DNA of 64,000 nt from Leucobacter salsicius M1-8 (GTDB lineage: Bacteria; Actinomycetota; Actinomycetes; Actinomycetales; Microbacteriaceae), in contig NZ_AOCN01000004.1 of NCBI RefSeq assembly GCF_000350525.1, forward strand, positions 37,021-101,020. Reading direction: 5' to 3'. The stretch's first letter is position 1; each line of letters begins with the position of its first letter. The notes under the pieces were generated by a model. It was given only the letters and a program-made list of their open reading frames with translations, did no database searches and had not been told where the DNA came from. This document shows positions 11,573 to 52,045 of this stretch, one piece after another. A program made the position numbers and the translations under genes.

Positions 11573-11652
11573 GTATCTTCACCACAGGTCACTCGACGCG
11601 TCACCGCGCCAAGCGATACGTTCGAGGAGATTCCCTACGAACGGTGCCATAC

Positions 11653-13728
11653 ATGTCAGCGCAGACGCCCCTCGGTTCCTCAATTCCGCTCCGCCCCACG
11701 GGCTCCTCCACGGCCCAGCATTTCCCTCGACTCTTCGAACCCCTCGAGTTGGGACGCGTCACGCTGCCCAACCGCATCATCATGGGCTCCATGCACCTTG
11801 GGCTCGAAGAATTCGATGACGGCCCCGCCCGGCTCGCCGCTTTCTATCGCGAACGAGCCGCATCCGGACCAGCCCTCATCATCACCGGCGGCGTCTCCCC
11901 CAACGAGGCGGGCCGACTCACCGCCAAGGAGCGGCCACTCACCAGTGAACAGGATCTCGCGCGCCACCGCCCGATTACCGAGGCCGTGCATCAGGCGGGC
12001 GGCCGCATTGCCCTGCAGCTCCTGCACGCCGGGCGGTACGCCGCCCACCCCGGGCTCGTCGCCCCGAGCCCCATTCAGGCTCCAATCTCTCCCCTTACCC
12101 CGAGGGAACTCACCGACGCCGACATCGAACGCACGATCGACGACTACGCGCACGCCGCGCGCCTGGCGCTACAGGCGGGATACGACGGAGTCGAGATCAT
12201 GGGCTCCGAGGGCTACCTCATCAACCAGTTCACGGCCCCCGTCACCAATCGGCGCACGGACCGCTGGGGTGGCAGTCTCGACAACCGACTCCGGTTTCCG
12301 ACCGAAATCGTGCGGCGCGTGCGCGAAGCCTGCGGCGAAGGCTTCATCATTGTCACCCGCGTCTCGATGCTCGACCTCGTGCAGGGCGGCTCCACCGTGG
12401 ACGAGGTGATCGAACTCGCCAGGCGCGTCGAGTCGGCCGGCACCAACCTCATTAACACCGGGATCGGCTGGCACGAGGCCCGGGTGCCGACAATTGCGGC
12501 CACCGTTCCGCGGGCGGCCTTTGCGTGGGTCACGAAGCGCCTCATGGGCGCGATATCTGTTCCCCTCATCGCCGCCAATCGCATCAACATGCCGGCCGAA
12601 GCCGAGCAGGTACTCGAGGAGGGGGCCGCCCACCTCGTCTCACTCGCCCGCCCGTTTCTCGCCGACCCCGAGTTCGTCGCCAAGGCGCGGGCCGGCACAC
12701 CCTGGCGCATCAACACCTGCATCGCGTGCAACCAGGCATGCCTCGACCATGCCTTCGCGGGCAAACCCGCTTCGTGCCTCGTGAATCCGCGGGCTGGTCG
12801 CGAGACAGAGCTCGCCATCGATCCGGCGCTTACACCCCGGCGCATCGCGGTCGTGGGCTCGGGACCCGCGGGGCTCGCGTGCGCCACCACCGCCGCAAGC
12901 CGTGGCCACCGCGTCACACTTTTCGAGGCGGCAGCCGACCTCGGAGGCCAGCTGAACCTGGCACTCAAAGTACCCGGTAAGAGCGAGTTTCGCGAGACGC
13001 TGCGCTACTTCACGAACCGCATTCACGAGACCGAAACTGAGCTGCGCCTCGGTCACCGTGCGACGCCCGAGGATCTCGCGGACTTTGACGAGGTCGTGAT
13101 TGCGACGGGGGTCACGCCCCGCTCCCCCGAGATTCCCGGCCTCGACCATCCAAGCGTCGTCAGCTACGTGGACGTGCTGCGGCACGGTGCCGCCGTCGGC
13201 GAGCGGGTCGCGATCCTGGGCGCGGGGGGCATCGGCTTCGACGTCGCCGACTATCTCACGGACGAGCACCCCGCCGCGCCCTCCGATATCGGGGCGTTCC
13301 TCGCGCACTGGGGCGTTGATCCGGAGCAGCCCGATGGGTTCGCGGCCACGGGCCCGTCTCCTGATGTGCCTCGCCGCTCGGTGATCATGCTGCAGCGCAA
13401 GGACACCAAGCTGGGCGTGGGGCTCGGCAAGACAACCGGGTGGATTCACCGCGCCGAGCTTGCCCGCCGCGACGTGCTCATGATCCCGGGTGCCGAGTAC
13501 CTCAGCATCGACGACGCGGGCCTCACCGTACGCGCGGGCGAACAGGTGCGCACGCTCGAGGTCGACACGATCGTCCTGTGCACGGGACAGGATCCGGATC
13601 GCACGCTGTTTGACGAGCTCGCCGCCGCGGGCCGCGAGGCGCTCCTGATCGGAGGCGCTTTCATTGCGGGCGAGCTGGACGCCAAACGTGCGATTGAACA
13701 GGGGACAAAGTTGGGTGCGAGCCTATAG
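11653..13728 (+). CDS. fadH: 2,4-dienoyl-CoA reductase-type NADH:flavin oxidoreductase
   Basis: 691 residues, close to the 672 of E. coli FadH. An Old-Yellow-Enzyme TIM barrel (1-375) carries FMN. The [4Fe-4S] motif C-X2-C-X3-C-X11-C is in CIACNQACLDHAF and ASCLVNP. FAD and NAD(P) Rossmann folds follow (VGSGPAGLACATTA; ILGAGGIGFDVADYL). It reduces 2,4-dienoyl-CoA esters in beta-oxidation of unsaturated fatty acids; related enzymes act on other enones. GTG 11644 is an alternative start. Its CTA TAG end is the prophage attachment core. Confidence 0.85.
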   Translation: MSAQTPLGSSIPLRPTGSSTAQHFPRLFEPLELGRVTLPNRIIMGSMHLGLEEFDDGPARLAAFYRERAASGPALIITGGVSPNEAGRLTAKERPLTSEQDLARHRPITEAVHQAGGRIALQLLHAGRYAAHPGLVAPSPIQAPISPLTPRELTDADIERTIDDYAHAARLALQAGYDGVEIMGSEGYLINQFTAPVTNRRTDRWGGSLDNRLRFPTEIVRRVREACGEGFIIVTRVSMLDLVQGGSTVDEVIELARRVESAGTNLINTGIGWHEARVPTIAATVPRAAFAWVTKRLMGAISVPLIAANRINMPAEAEQVLEEGAAHLVSLARPFLADPEFVAKARAGTPWRINTCIACNQACLDHAFAGKPASCLVNPRAGRETELAIDPALTPRRIAVVGSGPAGLACATTAASRGHRVTLFEAAADLGGQLNLALKVPGKSEFRETLRYFTNRIHETETELRLGHRATPEDLADFDEVVIATGVTPRSPEIPGLDHPSVVSYVDVLRHGAAVGERVAILGAGGIGFDVADYLTDEHPAAPSDIGAFLAHWGVDPEQPDGFAATGPSPDVPRRSVIMLQRKDTKLGVGLGKTTGWIHRAELARRDVLMIPGAEYLSIDDAGLTVRAGEQVRTLEVDTIVLCTGQDPDRTLFDELAAAGREALLIGGAFIAGELDAKRAIEQGTKLGASL
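13722..13728. repeat. Candidate attL core CCTATAG
   Basis: Identical to 50684-50690. It includes the fadH stop codon, so fadH is restored on integration. An alternative pairing is CCTATGGGCAT (13729-13739) with CCTATAGGCAT (50684-50694), 10 of 11 matching, so the exact crossover is not fixed. Confidence 0.7.
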
Positions 13729-44209: not shown

Positions 44210-44863
44210 ATGACTATTTGGGCCACTGATCCGGACCTCGACCTCACAGCGATCCTGAGCGTGTCCATCGCAGCAGCCACCCTCGTTGTGGTGCTGATCC
44301 AAGAGCGCAGGCATCGCCGCCGCGCGCAACCAGCCGTATGGGAGTCATCGGTCATTGGAACGGTCGGCGAGCCAGATGTTGCCTCGCCAAACCTCTTCGT
44401 GTCTCTGTCCCAACACGGCTCAGAAACCATTCGACTACTCGGCTGCCTGACATATGAGTGCAAACCCTTGCTCAGCAAAGAGCTCCGGATCAAGAGCTTC
44501 GTGTTTCGAACCGGCGACACTGTCAACTTGGAATTCGAATGCGCCGACCCCGAGAAGGCCTGGCTGCGCATCACATGGATTTCGCTTGACGACACCTCAA
44601 AGGTGCTTACCGAGTGGATCCCCCTCATGAACACAGGCCCACTGAGTGACAAACGGTGGAAACAGATTCAAGAAGAACCCAAACAACGCTGGTGGCAGAA
44701 AGTGCGACTGCCAGAGCACGTGCTACTGAGGCGAGTGGGCCCCGATCACCAGCCGTGGCGCAAAGTAGCAGCAACGAAGAAACGGAGAGCACGAATGGAA
44801 ATACTTGGCGCAGAAATTCGGGAAGCAGAAACCAATTCAGCGTCAGGAGCGCTAGGGCACTAA
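44210..44863 (+). CDS. Plus-strand membrane-anchored moron
   Basis: 217 residues: one N-terminal helix (LTAILSVSIAAATLVVVLIQ), a basic RRHRRRAQ stop-transfer and a beta-rich cytoplasmic domain (LFVSLSQHGSETIRLLGCLT). Opposite in strand to its neighbours. TAGAGT lies 6 nt before the ATG, which would give a leaderless transcript. Its last 239 bp overlap an opposing gene. A role in exclusion or lysogen fitness is inference. Confidence 0.65.
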   Translation: MTIWATDPDLDLTAILSVSIAAATLVVVLIQERRHRRRAQPAVWESSVIGTVGEPDVASPNLFVSLSQHGSETIRLLGCLTYECKPLLSKELRIKSFVFRTGDTVNLEFECADPEKAWLRITWISLDDTSKVLTEWIPLMNTGPLSDKRWKQIQEEPKQRWWQKVRLPEHVLLRRVGPDHQPWRKVAATKKRRARMEILGAEIREAETNSASGALGH

Positions 44864-46555: not shown

Positions 46556-46755
46556 GCTGCGGCCTGCTCTCCGAGCGACCTCGCTCGCGCCTGCATCATC
46601 CGGACCTTTTCCTCGAGTTCATCGACCGATGGGCCGCCCGGAGTGAATGCCCTCTCGGCTGCTTCTCGCGGATCTGACACCAGAACCTTCCGAAGCGCAC
46701 GAGAGAGGATCACGCCTGCCGCGGCGAGGCATTCGGCTTGCGTTCTGGTCGCCAT
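46552..46755 (-). CDS. Small helical phage protein
   Basis: 67 residues; amphipathic helices with a coiled-coil end (VDELEEKVRMMQARARSLGE). TAATG overlap with the Cro-like gene, so it is co-translated early. Unknown. Confidence 0.5.
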   Translation of the reverse strand: MATRTQAECLAAAGVILSRALRKVLVSDPREAAERAFTPGGPSVDELEEKVRMMQARARSLGEQAAA

Positions 46756-47045
46756 TACTCGGCCCTCACACCTGACGGCGGGTGCTGCTCGGCGGCGAGC
46801 GCTGCGACCTCTGCCTTTGCGACGATGATTGAGGCTGATGAGCCAATCTCATTGGCCACGGCCGCGAGCATCGAAGTACTGAACGGAACATGTCCATTCA
46901 CACGTGCTGACAGAGTTGCTCGCCTCATCCCAATACGTTCGGAAATTGCTTTCACTGATGCGCCTGGAACGCGAGCAATCTCGGCTCTCACTTCAGCTGC
47001 AACAAGAGCATCAAGCTCACTGAGCCCATTTCGGTTCACGGTCAT
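46755..47045 (-). CDS. Cro-like XRE repressor
   Basis: 96 residues with a typical XRE helix-turn-helix: VKAISERIGMRRATLSARVN then a third helix LAAVANEIG. It is the first gene of the leftward early operon. ATG 47045 is 6 nt after the -10 of a consensus promoter, so the mRNA is probably leaderless. The in-frame extension to 47114 crosses the operators and is not used. Confidence 0.75.
   Translation of the reverse strand: MTVNRNGLSELDALVAAEVRAEIARVPGASVKAISERIGMRRATLSARVNGHVPFSTSMLAAVANEIGSSASIIVAKAEVAALAAEQHPPSGVRAE
46790..46802. repeat. Recurrent element, copy 6 (13-bp core)
   Basis: CGGCGGCGAGCGC near the end of the Cro-like gene (ALAAE). The strand switch is weaker here than at the other copies. 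Confidence 0.45.
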
Positions 47046-47113
47046 GTCAACATGTTGAACCCATTTGGGTTCAATGTCAAACTGCTTGCGCCACGTGAAC
47101 CCAAATGGGTACA
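47021..47113. promoter_or_regulatory. Lysogeny control region with three related operators
   Basis: O1 TTGAACCCATTTGGGTTCAA (47055-47074) is a perfect palindrome. O2 (47096-47113, TGAACCCAAATGGGTACA) matches 7 of 8 in each arm and O3 (47021-47038, TGAGCCCATTTCGGTTCA) 6 of 8. The leftward promoter has TTGACA (47075-47080), a 17-bp spacer that is O1, and CAACAT (47052-47057). The rightward one may use TACACT (47110-47115), 7 nt before the repressor GTG. O3 lies within the first codons of the Cro-like gene. Confidence 0.8.
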
Positions 47114-47122
47114 CTCTTGGGT

Positions 47123-47443
47123 GTGGCTAGAACCAAGAAGGACCTACAACCGATCGACGCGAAGATCGCCGAGATTCTTTCTGAGCTCGTTGTGGAATCT
47201 GGCATGACACGACGCACCCTTGCTGGCGAGACTGGAATGTCCGTCAATCGGCTGGGCATCATCCTGCGCCAGGAGCCACCGCCCGCAACAGTGGGTGAGT
47301 TGGGCTTACTTGCCCAAGCTCTGGGCTTCAGCGCTTCAGACATCGTCGAGCGCGCCGAAGCAGCAGTCCACCCCGCACAGTCGGACTACGACCTCGTTGC
47401 CCACCCCTACACCGACGAGACCGGCGAACTCATGGACGAATAG
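47123..47443 (+). CDS. Prophage repressor (XRE family)
   Basis: 106 residues. HTH GMTRRTLAGETGMSVNRLGI, a linker (RQEPPPATVGE), and a second helical region (LLAQALGFSASDIVERAEAA). It lacks an autocleavage domain, so induction is likely through the neighbouring ImmA-type protease. GTG 47123 is in a leaderless position; ATG 47105 lies within O2 and is less likely. Followed by ImmA gene after 9 bp. Confidence 0.75.
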   Translation: MARTKKDLQPIDAKIAEILSELVVESGMTRRTLAGETGMSVNRLGIILRQEPPPATVGELGLLAQALGFSASDIVERAEAAVHPAQSDYDLVAHPYTDETGELMDE

Positions 47444-47452
47444 GAACCCCCG

Positions 47453-47905
47453 ATGAAACGACTCATCGAGTACGCCGCGACCATCGGCGTAACATACGAG
47501 CTCAGCGATGATCTCAGCCCCCACCACCCCGGCAGCTACAGCGACTCCCGCCGGCACATCAAGATCCTCGATGGCATGACCGATACAAAAACCGTCTGCG
47601 CATTCGCGCACGAACTTGGGCACGCCACCCTCGCCCACCGGAACTCGCTTTTCGACTGGATCAACGACCGCCAAGAACGAGCTGCCGACGAGTGGGCCGC
47701 CGCTTTCCTCATAGACCTCGACGAGTACGGCCTTGCCGAATCCAAGTACGGCCTCCGAACTGACTGGATCGCCCAAGAACTCGGAGTGCTCGAGCGTCTC
47801 GTCACAGCGTTCGAGCGATCCCTCCACCGCTTCGGTGACTGTGTCTACATAAACCCCCGCATGGGCGCCGGTCAATACGCCGCCCGCATTCCCATCGCTG
47901 TATAG
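47453..47905 (+). CDS. ImmA/IrrE-type metallopeptidase
   Basis: 150 residues. Zinc motif HELGH at 53-57 and the third ligand glutamate in RAADEWAAAFL. ImmA proteins cleave prophage repressors in response to DNA damage or signalling (known from ICEBs1 and phi105-type elements). Here it is co-transcribed with the small repressor, so it probably controls induction. Confidence 0.85.
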   Translation: MKRLIEYAATIGVTYELSDDLSPHHPGSYSDSRRHIKILDGMTDTKTVCAFAHELGHATLAHRNSLFDWINDRQERAADEWAAAFLIDLDEYGLAESKYGLRTDWIAQELGVLERLVTAFERSLHRFGDCVYINPRMGAGQYAARIPIAV

Positions 47906-47920
47906 CTCAAAGGATCAACG

Positions 47921-49261
47921 ATGCCCCCTGTTAATCATGTCCCCGTGCCCCGCTCACAAGGCGAGGTCAACGCGATCACCAACGCTCGAACTTTCGTCAT
48001 CCTCGGCGGCATACTTTCCGCGATTGTACTGCTGCCGACGGTGCCGTACGTTTGGCTCGGCATCGGCGCAGTCTTAGTTCCGATGGTGTGGGTCAAGACC
48101 GGGAAACACAAGCGCGCCGTCATGGAAGCCGCCGGTTGTTCCACCAAAGAACAGTGGCGAGCGTTCTACAACACCCTGCCAACCGACAAGGAATTCAAAC
48201 AGCAACAAGCAGAGCAGGCACGCGGCACTGCCGGCACAGCACTGGCCGCAATGGCACACGCAGAATCATCACCACGTACTCGCACAGTTGTAAACACACG
48301 AGCTCCGCGTGCCCAGTCAACCAAGCCCTGGGTTTCCCCGCCCCGACCGGAACTCCACTACCCGAGGTACAACCTCCTCAGCTCCGGTTACGCAAACGTC
48401 GAAGTAGTCGGGGAAGCGTACCGAGAAACTTCCGTAATCGCAGCACTTGGTGGGCTTTCGCCTGACGTCGAAAAGACACTTGACGAAGTATTGGCTTTCC
48501 TTATCCCCGAGCCCGAGAACCCTCACGGACATGGGAACGCCATCATGGTTTGGATGAACGGCCACCACGTTGGCTACCTCGCCAATGAAGACGCAAAACG
48601 TTACCGCCCAGTACTAGCCCAAATCATCGACGCCGGCTACTTACCAATAACCACAGGACGCCTCTGGGGAGTCTCTCGTTATAGCTGGGACAACAAGCTA
48701 AAACACCATCTCTACGCCCGAGTCGCATTGAATGAGCCTGAAAAACTCATCCCTACCAATGACCCACCTCGAAGCAGCTACTCGATGCTCCCATGGGGTA
48801 ATGCCATTCAAGTAACCAAGGAAGCTGACCACCTTCCGGAGCTCACGGAGCACCTGAACGGCCCCGATAGCTACGCGATCGCAACGCTCAGGCCCGCAAC
48901 CAAAACGCTCAAGAATGGAAACATCCGTGAGTACGTAACCGTGCACATTGATGGCGACGAAATCGGCGAGCTCACACCGGTAACTAGCGAAAAGCTACTC
49001 CCCATGATCCGACACCTCAATGATCTGGAACACGAGGCCGCTGCCTGGGCCAGAGTGAAGGGTTCGGCACTCGCTGTCGAAGTCACCATCCAAGCGTCAA
49101 AGGCCCACGAAATCCCAGAATCATGGCTCGCCGAGATTCCAGTCGTGATCCCGTCGCTCCACGCACTACCAGCCGCCGCAGATACCGCCTCGACAGAATC
49201 AGATCGTCCCAGTCCAAGTCAGTTGACAGCGCGCGAGCGCGAAGAAAACTGGGACTTCTAA
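47921..49261 (+). CDS. Membrane-anchored HIRAN-like protein in the lysogenic cassette
   Basis: 446 residues. Two hydrophobic helices at about 23-58, a charged linker, then a HIRAN-like domain at about 158-250: VEVVGEAYRETSVIAALGG, PEPENPHGHGNAIMVWMNG, HHVGYLANEDAKRYRPVLAQ. A second region (VTVHIDGDEIGELTPVTSEK) resembles a repeat of the same core. HIRAN domains bind DNA 3' ends or occur with nucleases and helicases; none is fused here. Function unknown; see findings. Confidence 0.6.
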   Translation: MPPVNHVPVPRSQGEVNAITNARTFVILGGILSAIVLLPTVPYVWLGIGAVLVPMVWVKTGKHKRAVMEAAGCSTKEQWRAFYNTLPTDKEFKQQQAEQARGTAGTALAAMAHAESSPRTRTVVNTRAPRAQSTKPWVSPPRPELHYPRYNLLSSGYANVEVVGEAYRETSVIAALGGLSPDVEKTLDEVLAFLIPEPENPHGHGNAIMVWMNGHHVGYLANEDAKRYRPVLAQIIDAGYLPITTGRLWGVSRYSWDNKLKHHLYARVALNEPEKLIPTNDPPRSSYSMLPWGNAIQVTKEADHLPELTEHLNGPDSYAIATLRPATKTLKNGNIREYVTVHIDGDEIGELTPVTSEKLLPMIRHLNDLEHEAAAWARVKGSALAVEVTIQASKAHEIPESWLAEIPVVIPSLHALPAAADTASTESDRPSPSQLTAREREENWDF

Positions 49262-49265
49262 TCAA

Positions 49266-50690
49266 ATGCGCGCACTCCGTCCCGTCCCTGCCATCGCCCC
49301 GCGCGCGGTGCTCTACCTTCGTCAGTCTGTCGCTCGGGACGATTCCATCAGCCTCGAGCTGCAGGAGATCGCGGGGCGCGACTACTGCGTCACCCAAGGC
49401 TACGAAGTCGTATCCGTCGAGGTAGACGAAGGACTCTCCGGTCGCAACTGGTCCAAGCGCCCCGCAGTGCAGCGCGCCATGGCCTCCATCGAAGCGCGAG
49501 ACGCTGACATCATCGTGCTCTGGAAATGGTCGCGCCTCTCCCGCAACCGCAAAGACTGGGCCCTCGCCGCCGACCGCGTCGACGTCGCAGGCGGCCGCAT
49601 CGAATCAGCCACCGAACCCATCGACACCGCCACCGCTTCAGGTCGTTTTGCTCGCGGCGTCATGACCGAGTACGCAGCCTTCCAATCCGAGCAGATCGGC
49701 GAGCAATGGGCCGAAGTCCGCGCACGCAGATTCAACCTCGGCCTGCCACCCACCGGGTCCGTGCCCTGGGGATGGACCAGCCACAAAACGTACATCACCG
49801 CCGACCCCGACAAGGCCCCCTACCTTCGCGAAATGTACCGCATGTACCTCTCCGGCAGCGGCTACACCGCCATCGCCTCTTGGCTCAACCGAACGCCCGC
49901 TAAGACCACCAATGGCCGCGACTGGCTCCACGCCACCATTCGGAGACTCCTCGACTCCCCCATCCATGCCGGCAAAGTCGAGTACCTCGGCCAGATCCGC
50001 GACGGCGCCCACGATGGAATCATCACCGACACCGAATGGCAGCAGTATCAAGCTCTCAGAAAAGACCGGCACATCGCAGTGAGACCACGCACCTCTCCGT
50101 ACCTACTCGCCTCCATCATCGTGTGCCACTGCGGTCGAAAGCGGCACGGCAAACGGGAAGTCATCAAGACTGCCGCCGGTGACGTTGAAAGGCGCTACTA
50201 CCAATGCCCTTCAACGACCGGCCACCCACGCAAGAGCATTGCCGCACATCACGTAGATCAAGCCATCACCAATTGGGTAAAACAGCTCCCACACATAACG
50301 GTCGACGCCGGTGACACCACAGGCCATTCCATCGACATCGAAGCACTCGCGCGCGAAATCACCGGCATCGAAAAACAGCTCGTCAAACTCACCGAACACC
50401 TCCTCTCCGGACTTGTCCCCGAACCCACATACCGCGACACGAAAGAACTACTCACCGGAAAAGCCACCGGGCTCCGCCTCGAGCTCGAAGCAGCAAAGTC
50501 ACGGCAATCGTTCTCGCCCGCCATGTTTCTATCTGGCAGCGAAGATCTCGTAGAGTCCTGGGACATCCTCGAAACACCAGACAGGCAATCACTCCTGCGA
50601 ACTTTGGTCCGGTCAGTGACCGTACGAGAAGACCGAAAACTCGATGTCATAACAGCCTGGGGAACGACTGAAGTTATCGATACCCTATAG
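49266..50690 (+). CDS. int: Large serine integrase
   Basis: 474 residues. Catalytic serine S21 in AVLYLRQSVARDDSIS, followed by LSGRNWSKRPAV, VLWKWSRLSRN and a recombinase domain (WGWTSHKTYI, WLHATIRRLLDSP). A zinc ribbon with ICHCGRKRHG-type cysteines and a helical coiled-coil domain (IEKQLVKLTEHLLSG) follow. It integrates the phage at the fadH end. Its own CTA TAG end is the attR core, so the reading frame is preserved on integration. No directionality factor is obvious. Confidence 0.92.
   Translation: MRALRPVPAIAPRAVLYLRQSVARDDSISLELQEIAGRDYCVTQGYEVVSVEVDEGLSGRNWSKRPAVQRAMASIEARDADIIVLWKWSRLSRNRKDWALAADRVDVAGGRIESATEPIDTATASGRFARGVMTEYAAFQSEQIGEQWAEVRARRFNLGLPPTGSVPWGWTSHKTYITADPDKAPYLREMYRMYLSGSGYTAIASWLNRTPAKTTNGRDWLHATIRRLLDSPIHAGKVEYLGQIRDGAHDGIITDTEWQQYQALRKDRHIAVRPRTSPYLLASIIVCHCGRKRHGKREVIKTAAGDVERRYYQCPSTTGHPRKSIAAHHVDQAITNWVKQLPHITVDAGDTTGHSIDIEALAREITGIEKQLVKLTEHLLSGLVPEPTYRDTKELLTGKATGLRLELEAAKSRQSFSPAMFLSGSEDLVESWDILETPDRQSLLRTLVRSVTVREDRKLDVITAWGTTEVIDTL
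50684..50690. repeat. Candidate attR core CCTATAG
   Basis: Matches 13722-13728. It overlaps the last codons of the integrase gene and is followed two bases later by the host M20 peptidase ATG. Confidence 0.7.
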
Positions 50691-50692
50691 GC

Positions 50693-52045
50693 ATGGCAGA
50701 CAGTGTTGTCCCGCGCCCAGGCTCCGCCGAGCGACTCTCGCGCATGATTCAGGTGCCGACGGTGTCGGCAGAGCCGCCCACCAGTGGGCTCGCGCCGTTC
50801 GAGCGCTTCGTCACCCTGCTCGGGGAGCTCTATCCGCTCGCGCATGAGCGGCTCTCGCGCGAGCGCATCACCGATCTCGGGCTGCTGTTTCGGTGGCCGG
50901 GCAGGGATGCGACGGCCGACCCGGTCGTGCTGATGGCGCACTTCGACGTGGTACCAGCGGAGGCGAGCGACGGCTGGCGGGAGCCGCCGTTTGGCGGAGT
51001 CGTCAGGGACGGGTTCGTGCACGGGCGTGGGGCGCTCGACGACAAGGGGCCACTGCTCGTGATGTTTGAGGCGGTCGAGAACCTGCTCGCGGCGGGGTTC
51101 GTCCCCGAGCGAGACGTGTACCTATCGCTCGGCGGCAACGAGGAATCGTTTGGCGATGCCGCGCGGGCGATCGCGCAGGCGTTTCAGGATCGCGGCCTCA
51201 CCCCGTGGCTCGTGCTCGACGAGGGCGGGGCCGTGGTCGCGTCACCACTGCCGTTGGTACGGGGCGAGGCCGCCATGATCGGTGTCGGCGAGAAGGGCGC
51301 CACGACCGTGCGACTGTCGGCACAGGGGGCCGGCGGGCACGCGTCGGCACCGCCCGCGCTCACGGCGGTGGGCCGGGTGGCCCGGGCCGTGTCCAAGCTG
51401 ACCCCCGCCACGTTTGCGGCGCGTACCCCCGTGGCGGTGTCGGCGATGCTCTCAAGATTTGCAACGCGCGCCCGAGGGCCAGCACACTACCTCTACCGCG
51501 CCCTCGCCGCCTCACCGTGGCTCACGGCGCGGGTCTTCACACTGCTGGGCGGCGAGCCCGCCGCCCTCGTACGCACCACGGTTGCGCCGACCATGCTCTC
51601 GGGCGGCACCGCACAAAACGTATTGCCATCGCGCGCCGAGGCCACCGTCAACCTGCGCATCGCGCTCGGCGAGACCGTCGCGGGCACGGCCCGTCGCCTG
51701 CGCCGCCGCATCGGCGACCGCCGGGTACAGATCGAGGTGCTCGAGGCCGGTGAGCCCTCCCCCGAGTCCAGCTCCGAGAACGAACAGTTCGCGCTTATCT
51801 CGACCGCAGTGGCGGTGTCCCATCCCACCGCGATGCCTGTGCCCTACGTCATGATGGCGGCAACCGACTCACGCCACTTTCACCGGTTTTCTCCCGCCTG
51901 CTACCGGTTCGCCCCGCTCGCGATGCCGGGCGAACTGCGCGCGACAATTCACGGCGTCGACGAGCGGGTCGAGATCGCGGAGCTCGAGCGCGGCGAGGTC
52001 TTCCACCGCGCCCTCATCCAGTCGATTCCCGGGGGTGCATCGTGA
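50693..52045 (+). CDS. M20-family zinc peptidase
   Basis: 450 residues. Metal ligands in MAHFDVVP, GRGALDDKGP and GGNEESFG; the dimerisation domain insertion starts near GEKGATTVRLSAQGAGGHAS. Related to carboxypeptidase Ss1/PM20D1-like enzymes that hydrolyse small peptides or N-acyl amino acids. Cytoplasmic. It overlaps the MFS gene by GTGA, which suggests import/export of the peptide-derived product. It was probably downstream of fadH before the phage inserted. Confidence 0.85.
   Translation: MADSVVPRPGSAERLSRMIQVPTVSAEPPTSGLAPFERFVTLLGELYPLAHERLSRERITDLGLLFRWPGRDATADPVVLMAHFDVVPAEASDGWREPPFGGVVRDGFVHGRGALDDKGPLLVMFEAVENLLAAGFVPERDVYLSLGGNEESFGDAARAIAQAFQDRGLTPWLVLDEGGAVVASPLPLVRGEAAMIGVGEKGATTVRLSAQGAGGHASAPPALTAVGRVARAVSKLTPATFAARTPVAVSAMLSRFATRARGPAHYLYRALAASPWLTARVFTLLGGEPAALVRTTVAPTMLSGGTAQNVLPSRAEATVNLRIALGETVAGTARRLRRRIGDRRVQIEVLEAGEPSPESSSENEQFALISTAVAVSHPTAMPVPYVMMAATDSRHFHRFSPACYRFAPLAMPGELRATIHGVDERVEIAELERGEVFHRALIQSIPGGAS

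Follow-up and report, generated by a model that had tools for sequence, protein, structure and literature searches.

The 64,000-nucleotide stretch of Leucobacter salsicius M1-8 DNA analysed here (the window) contains a prophage whose lysogeny cassette includes a gene (47921-49261, plus strand) for a predicted membrane-anchored tandem HIRAN-like protein of 446 amino acids (aa). We tentatively propose, with a probability of about 40%, that its product is a superinfection-exclusion factor made by the lysogen, binding incoming phage DNA at the inner membrane. The gene is part of the lysogeny module and lies between repressor and integrase, the position by which exclusion genes are recognised; this position, the optional carriage of the gene, and the anchor and fold of its product together point to exclusion. 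In the proposed mechanism, the lysogen would express the protein as part of the repressor operon, and a predicted hairpin would tether its two HIRAN-like domains at the inner face of the membrane. There, these domains would attach to the incoming phage genome at its end or at a single-stranded stretch, a capture that would stop genome entry or circularisation. The ImmA-type protease might act jointly with it, by analogy to the Orf2/Orf3 pair of phage TP901-1.

The original prediction had described a contiguous plus-strand cassette with short gaps, and this is what we find: repressor, ImmA-type protease, 446-aa protein and serine integrase follow one another at distances of 9, 15 and 4 bp. The repressor gene (47123-47443, GTG start) encodes a helix-turn-helix (HTH) protein (HTH_26, E 5.5e-5; phrog_4583, E 2.3e-6). 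The product of 47453-47905 (phrog_87, E 1.4e-15) is assigned to ImmA/Peptidase_M78 metalloproteases both by its profile score (Peptidase_M78, 32.3 bits versus a cut-off of 22) and by its HEXXH motif (HELGH). The large serine integrase (49266-50690) matches Resolvase (E 1.1e-25), Recombinase (E 7.7e-17) and phrog_95 (E 1.9e-97). Since a consensus scan, a weak kind of search, detected no plus-strand terminator-like or promoter-like site inside the four genes, we infer that they are probably read as a single transcript, which would be expressed in the lysogen.

A transmembrane hairpin is predicted at residues 25-62 (47993-48106) from hydropathy, which peaks at 2.13 over residues 26-44, and from predicted helices at residues 13-37 and 42-70, in agreement with the two N-terminal helices and membrane anchor suggested earlier. 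The hairpin leads into the sequence KTGKHKR, predicted to be cytoplasmic, and its turn is uncharged; the positive charge following the hairpin and the uncharged turn would place the HIRAN-like domains on the inner face of the membrane. Fold prediction likewise bore out the suspected HIRAN-like fold and its duplication, as residues 150-282 (48368-48766) and 284-406 (48770-49138) are both predicted to form the HIRAN barrel seen in the HIRAN domain of HLTF. We call the protein HIRAN-like because its score against PF08797 (21.6 bits) is below the Pfam gathering cut-off of 24.7. Among seven relatives scanned with this profile, L162 (27.2 bits) and gp33 of Propionibacterium phage E6 (40.8 bits) pass, and L161, L164, CSA1, P0043 and P0046 fail. 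HIRAN was the only family reported for the window protein in a Pfam scan at E up to 1, with no Ltp repeats (PF07553), and no PADLOC 2.0.0 family matched at E up to 10.

A protein search gave 24 hits, one of them the query (P0001); of these, alignment A1 omits P0010 and P0011 and alignment A2 additionally omits P0004, P0006, P0021, P0023 and P0024 (alignment A3 omits P0037 and P0038 of 22). In A2, the aromatic/His pocket positions are kept in all 17 rows. The first domain shares an NPY-type loop with HLTF, and the position aligned with the HLTF NPY tyrosine is Y or H in 17/17 rows. The C-terminal NWDF tail (49247-49258) is also conserved, with W444 in 17/17 rows and D in 14, E in 2 and a gap in 1 at position 445. 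Y167 of the window protein was aligned by eye with Y72 of HLTF; the HLTF NPY tyrosine is presumably Y93. HLTF differs in having a single HIRAN domain within a fork-remodelling protein and, to our knowledge, it has no membrane anchor.

HIRAN domains are described as binding DNA ends (passages of PMC8262856 and PMC4666394), and recognition of phage DNA ends has been proposed for other bacterial HIRANs in the HipN study (in a part of PMC8262856). Taken with the 3' overhangs of some actinophages, such as CL31 (16 bases) and two of the three mycobacteriophages in one announcement (the third being circularly permuted), this leads to the proposed DNA-end-capture step, which the changes in the pocket described below weaken. 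HipN/HipL and the diDNase-HipA-HIRAN clusters place HIRAN in bacterial conflict-type genes (excerpts of PMC8262856 and PMC11706625). HipN, however, has a HipS-like domain and an adjacent HipA-type kinase gene, whereas the neighbours in the window are an M78 protease and an integrase. The window protein and its neighbours gave no match to HipA or HipS at E up to 1, and a HipN-type toxin-antitoxin system was rejected because neither a kinase nor a HipS match was found.

The slot between protease and integrase has a precedent as a site of exclusion genes. Phage TP-J34 has the order repressor - metallo-proteinase - ltp - int, in which ltp is a proven exclusion gene reported to stop DNA injection (passages of PMC3952083); Ltp of TP-J34 and its kin (PF07553) is tethered to the membrane, as is predicted for the window protein. 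TP901-1 of Lactococcus has the same four-gene order as the window (cI, M78 protease, Orf2 with bacterial PH and SHOCT domains and no HIRAN, serine integrase). When its orf2 and orf3 were cloned together, fewer plaques were obtained for two skunaviruses, and resistance to P087 and WRP3 was complete (excerpts of PMC7693887). Exclusion by this two-component system (Orf2/Orf3, also SieF7/2AB) is thus proven experimentally, according to the same excerpts, whereas we infer the role of the window protein. An ImmA search returned 29 phage records, of which 12 were opened; the remaining 17 comprise nine twins of opened phages and eight others. A gene directly follows ImmA in 10 of the 12 and none does in MoxS-R1 and Sleepyhead (in Juicebox, no integrase was seen within the stretch shown). 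These slot genes are transmembrane- or lipoprotein-like in 8/10 cases, versus 12/61 for neighbouring genes in these ten stretches (Fisher p 3.7e-4, a generous value because several of the ten phages are related). One of them, gp034 of Corynebacterium phage phi16, belongs to the Ltp proteins (PF07553, E 1.6e-44; superinfection-exclusion phrog, E 2e-60). Our search of the open-licence PMC literature found no paper in which HIRAN is linked with an ImmA cassette or with superinfection exclusion; by analogy, the window gene would represent a known kind, the lysogeny-module exclusion gene, with a new domain type. As a separate observation on the slot, Poushou gp33 (L154:2958-4250) carries DUF4041 and T5orf172/MUG113 and is possibly a nuclease-type cargo.

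The HIRAN-like gene is also optional and movable. The Leucobacter-type prophage in genome G029 (locus L113) encodes an integrase 54% identical to that of the window in a repressor - ImmA - integrase run with nothing between, and the window protein as query found no match in that genome. Sleepyhead has the same core without a HIRAN-like gene. In CSA1, likewise of Leucobacter type and assigned by the genome search to the genus of the window (G022), the order is repressor - HIRAN-like - ImmA - serine integrase, with identities to the window of 61% for the HIRAN-like protein, 46% for ImmA and 51% for the integrase and no match for the repressor. Thus, being missing in G029 and placed before ImmA in CSA1, the gene appears dispensable for the core and able to fit on either side of ImmA. 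Between window and CSA1, the HIRAN-like gene has a nonsynonymous divergence (dN) of 0.29 and a synonymous divergence (dS) of 2.19, which is saturated; judging from the coding sequences, it is under purifying selection.

These arrangements bear on the role in induction sensing that the original prediction had offered beside exclusion. Of the two, exclusion is favoured by the positional precedent of TP-J34 ltp and TP901-1 orf2/3. As an induction sensor, the protein would respond to DNA ends after damage by activating ImmA for cleavage of the repressor. It does lie close to ImmA in the window, in CSA1 and in six Corynebacterium-type loci, and HIRAN is linked to damaged DNA in other proteins. But the core exists without the gene in G029 and Sleepyhead, CSA1 has the gene and ImmA in reverse order, and the ImmA model detected no ImmA in the stretches around the relatives in E6, G282 and G104; moreover, unrelated proteins, some of them lipoprotein-like, occupy the slot elsewhere, and a membrane tether would be odd for a damage sensor. 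We therefore regard induction sensing as decidedly unlikely, and an obligate partnership with ImmA was rejected because of the repressor-ImmA-integrase cores that lack the gene. Very improbable, too, is an accessory function in integration or prophage upkeep, with the protein as an integrase partner or as a membrane anchor of the prophage: the integrase starts 4 bp downstream and one is close in G104 as well, but the G029 integrase does without a HIRAN-like gene, and such genes are found with serine and tyrosine integrases alike.

The idea of an unfamiliar one-off protein did not hold, as the available sequences indicate that tandem HIRAN-like proteins are an actinobacterial family with chromosomal members. 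With its own genome counted, matches occur in 4/100 relatives, 26/396 genomes of the order and 45/398 of the family, and many of the weaker ones span just one HIRAN-like part. Six Corynebacterium-type loci (phage Bran, L153; L159, L160, L161, L162 and L164) have the order repressor - ImmA - HIRAN-derived transmembrane protein, in which the anchor is at the C-terminus, the opposite end from the window protein. On the tree, two separate lineages have HIRAN-like genes in the slot between ImmA and integrase, and each of these lineages stands next to chromosomal kin. Here, "chromosomal" means that no integrase was seen nearby, with 7 of the 16 such rows (G530, G703, G800, G778, G556, G606 and G727) checked by probes only, and G137 is labelled lysogeny although it is only an island whose integrase lies at a distance of 3.8 kb.

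Eighteen genomes, all matching the family, were examined: three (G104, G282 and G137) have a tyrosine integrase within 5 kb of the gene, and two others (the window and CSA1) have a serine integrase next to it. The tyrosine integrase is 0.6 kb from the HIRAN-like gene in G104 and 2.4 kb on in G282, where an HTH gene that looks like a repressor by eye (the repressor model gave no match) overlaps the HIRAN-like gene by 4 bp. E6 gp33 shares with the window protein an N-terminal hydrophobic segment, HIRAN and a W-D motif near its end; it follows the annotated repressor gp34 on the same strand and matches the window model in Foldseek (E 2.7e-21). It differs in its length of 532 aa, its tyrosine integrase and the lack of a detected ImmA beside it, and is annotated only as "DNA binding domain protein". 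By eye, a third HIRAN-like repeat is possible between the first and last in E6 gp33 (L002:6966-8564). A virion gene was rejected on the grounds that both close kin with known context, the window and CSA1, have the gene in a lysogeny cassette. Two loci, L056 (9325-10862) and L013 (8259-9667), have a similar gene pair (by eye, the first nucleotidyltransferase-like) between HIRAN-like gene and integrase, possibly a toxin-antitoxin or abortive-infection pair, and in L010 (G083:C7:1-9000) a tandem HIRAN-like gene is split across two overlapping frames near the contig start.

In other genomes the HIRAN-like gene is chromosomal, with no integrase noticed nearby (gene names by eye), and some of these relatives have a DUF2510-like start (also by eye). 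Such members would suit a moron that benefits the host in ways unrelated to phage attack, through DNA uptake, repair or the care of stalled forks. We consider this quite unlikely for the window gene, given the recurrence in the ImmA-integrase slot in two tree-separate lineages, each beside chromosomal kin. The low GC content of the 446-aa gene (56.9% versus 62.5% for the prophage body) argues neither way, since that of the Cro-like gene described below is 56.7%.

Several findings weigh against exclusion by DNA capture. No integrase is seen in 13 of the 18 family-match genomes (serine integrases were not sought across all 18), and one genus has the family gene beside an aminopeptidase-like gene (gene names by eye), so the family would have an additional role. 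With the window protein as query at E 1e-5, E6 (two records) was the only match among 50,697 phage records, and among the 12 ImmA cassettes examined only that of Bran holds a HIRAN-like gene. In Maja, whose integrase (38%) is the closest among named phages, HTH genes but no annotated ImmA or HIRAN gene lie before it. The slot genes Poushou gp33 and Footloose gp33 are not transmembrane-like, and three Dub35A genes between repressor and integrase, none predicted to encode a membrane protein, changed no phage sensitivity when cloned, as reported in excerpts of PMC7693887. Proven Ltp, a lipoprotein on the outer side of the membrane that lacks HIRAN, works outside the cell, whereas the window protein is predicted to lie inside. 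Finally, the Asp that follows the NPY tyrosine in HLTF is Gly in 12/17 rows of A2 and an NPY motif is missing from domain 2, so that DNA-end binding may be altered or lost; actinobacterial HipN is likewise described as lacking most DNA-contact motifs (in a part of PMC8262856).

The loss of this Asp in most rows would suit a factor that acts on proteins, either by blocking the tape-measure or injection machinery, as Ltp does, with the HIRAN-like folds as a scaffold, or by triggering a host response in exclusion or abortive infection. The slot evidence (phi16 gp034, TP-J34 ltp, TP901-1 orf2/3) serves this explanation equally, Ltp provides a precedent in working via the tape measure protein (passages of PMC3952083), and the conserved C-terminal W-D tail could be a docking peptide. 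However, the aromatic/His pocket is conserved in every aligned row, and, in contrast to Ltp, the predicted topology puts the domains on the cytoplasmic side. We consider action on proteins unlikely and favour the binding of incoming phage DNA.

Upstream of the cassette, a Cro-like HTH gene (46755-47045, minus strand; phrog_4583 transcriptional repressor, E 4.7e-8) is divergent from the repressor. Three operator-like palindromes all sit in this divergent region: GAGCCCATTTCGGTTC at 47022-47037, overlapping the Cro-like gene start with its right part; GAACCCATTTGGGTTC, a perfect palindrome, at 47057-47072; and a third at 47097-47112, immediately before the repressor's GTG start codon. The operator-like GAACCCAWWTGGGTTC (up to 3 mismatches) has 3 matches in the 64 kb versus 0.35 expected, a number reached by 1 of 100 shuffles. 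The prophage spans 13722-50690 (36,969 bp), with the cassette at its right end, and is present in IMG/VR as a 36,962-bp contig. Homology to the host breaks off at 13706 and starts again at 50693. No exact match shared by the two searched prophage ends is longer than the core CCTATAG, which occurs at attL (13722-13728), where it contains the stop codon of the host open reading frame (ORF) 11644-13728, and at attR (50684-50690), where it contains that of the integrase; relative G005 has a single CCTATAG at its empty site. With both stop codons inside the core, the end of the host gene would be kept intact on integration. A second rightward prophage ORF (44210-44863, plus strand; 217 aa, hydrophobic start by eye, GC content 56.6%) overlaps leftward ORFs and gave no Pfam match above cut-off and no homologue except itself; it is possibly an orphan moron, or else not a gene at all.

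More broadly, HIRAN-like proteins with a hairpin at either chain end might form a new exclusion class that seizes the end of incoming phage DNA at the entry site as a two-component system with the ImmA-type protease; they would have been taken up into actinophage lysogeny modules more than once, out of a chromosomal family whose role may be to protect the membrane from foreign DNA. We hold this wider picture to be doubtful. The slot between ImmA-type protease and integrase houses proven exclusion genes in Streptococcus thermophilus and Lactococcus phages. If the proposed function is true, Leucobacter-type and Corynebacterium-type prophages, with anchors at opposite ends of the protein, would practise a form of exclusion that targets the incoming DNA instead of the injection apparatus. 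This suggests a search rule for actinobacterial prophages, in which anti-phage genes that are still unknown might be found by looking after ImmA and before int.

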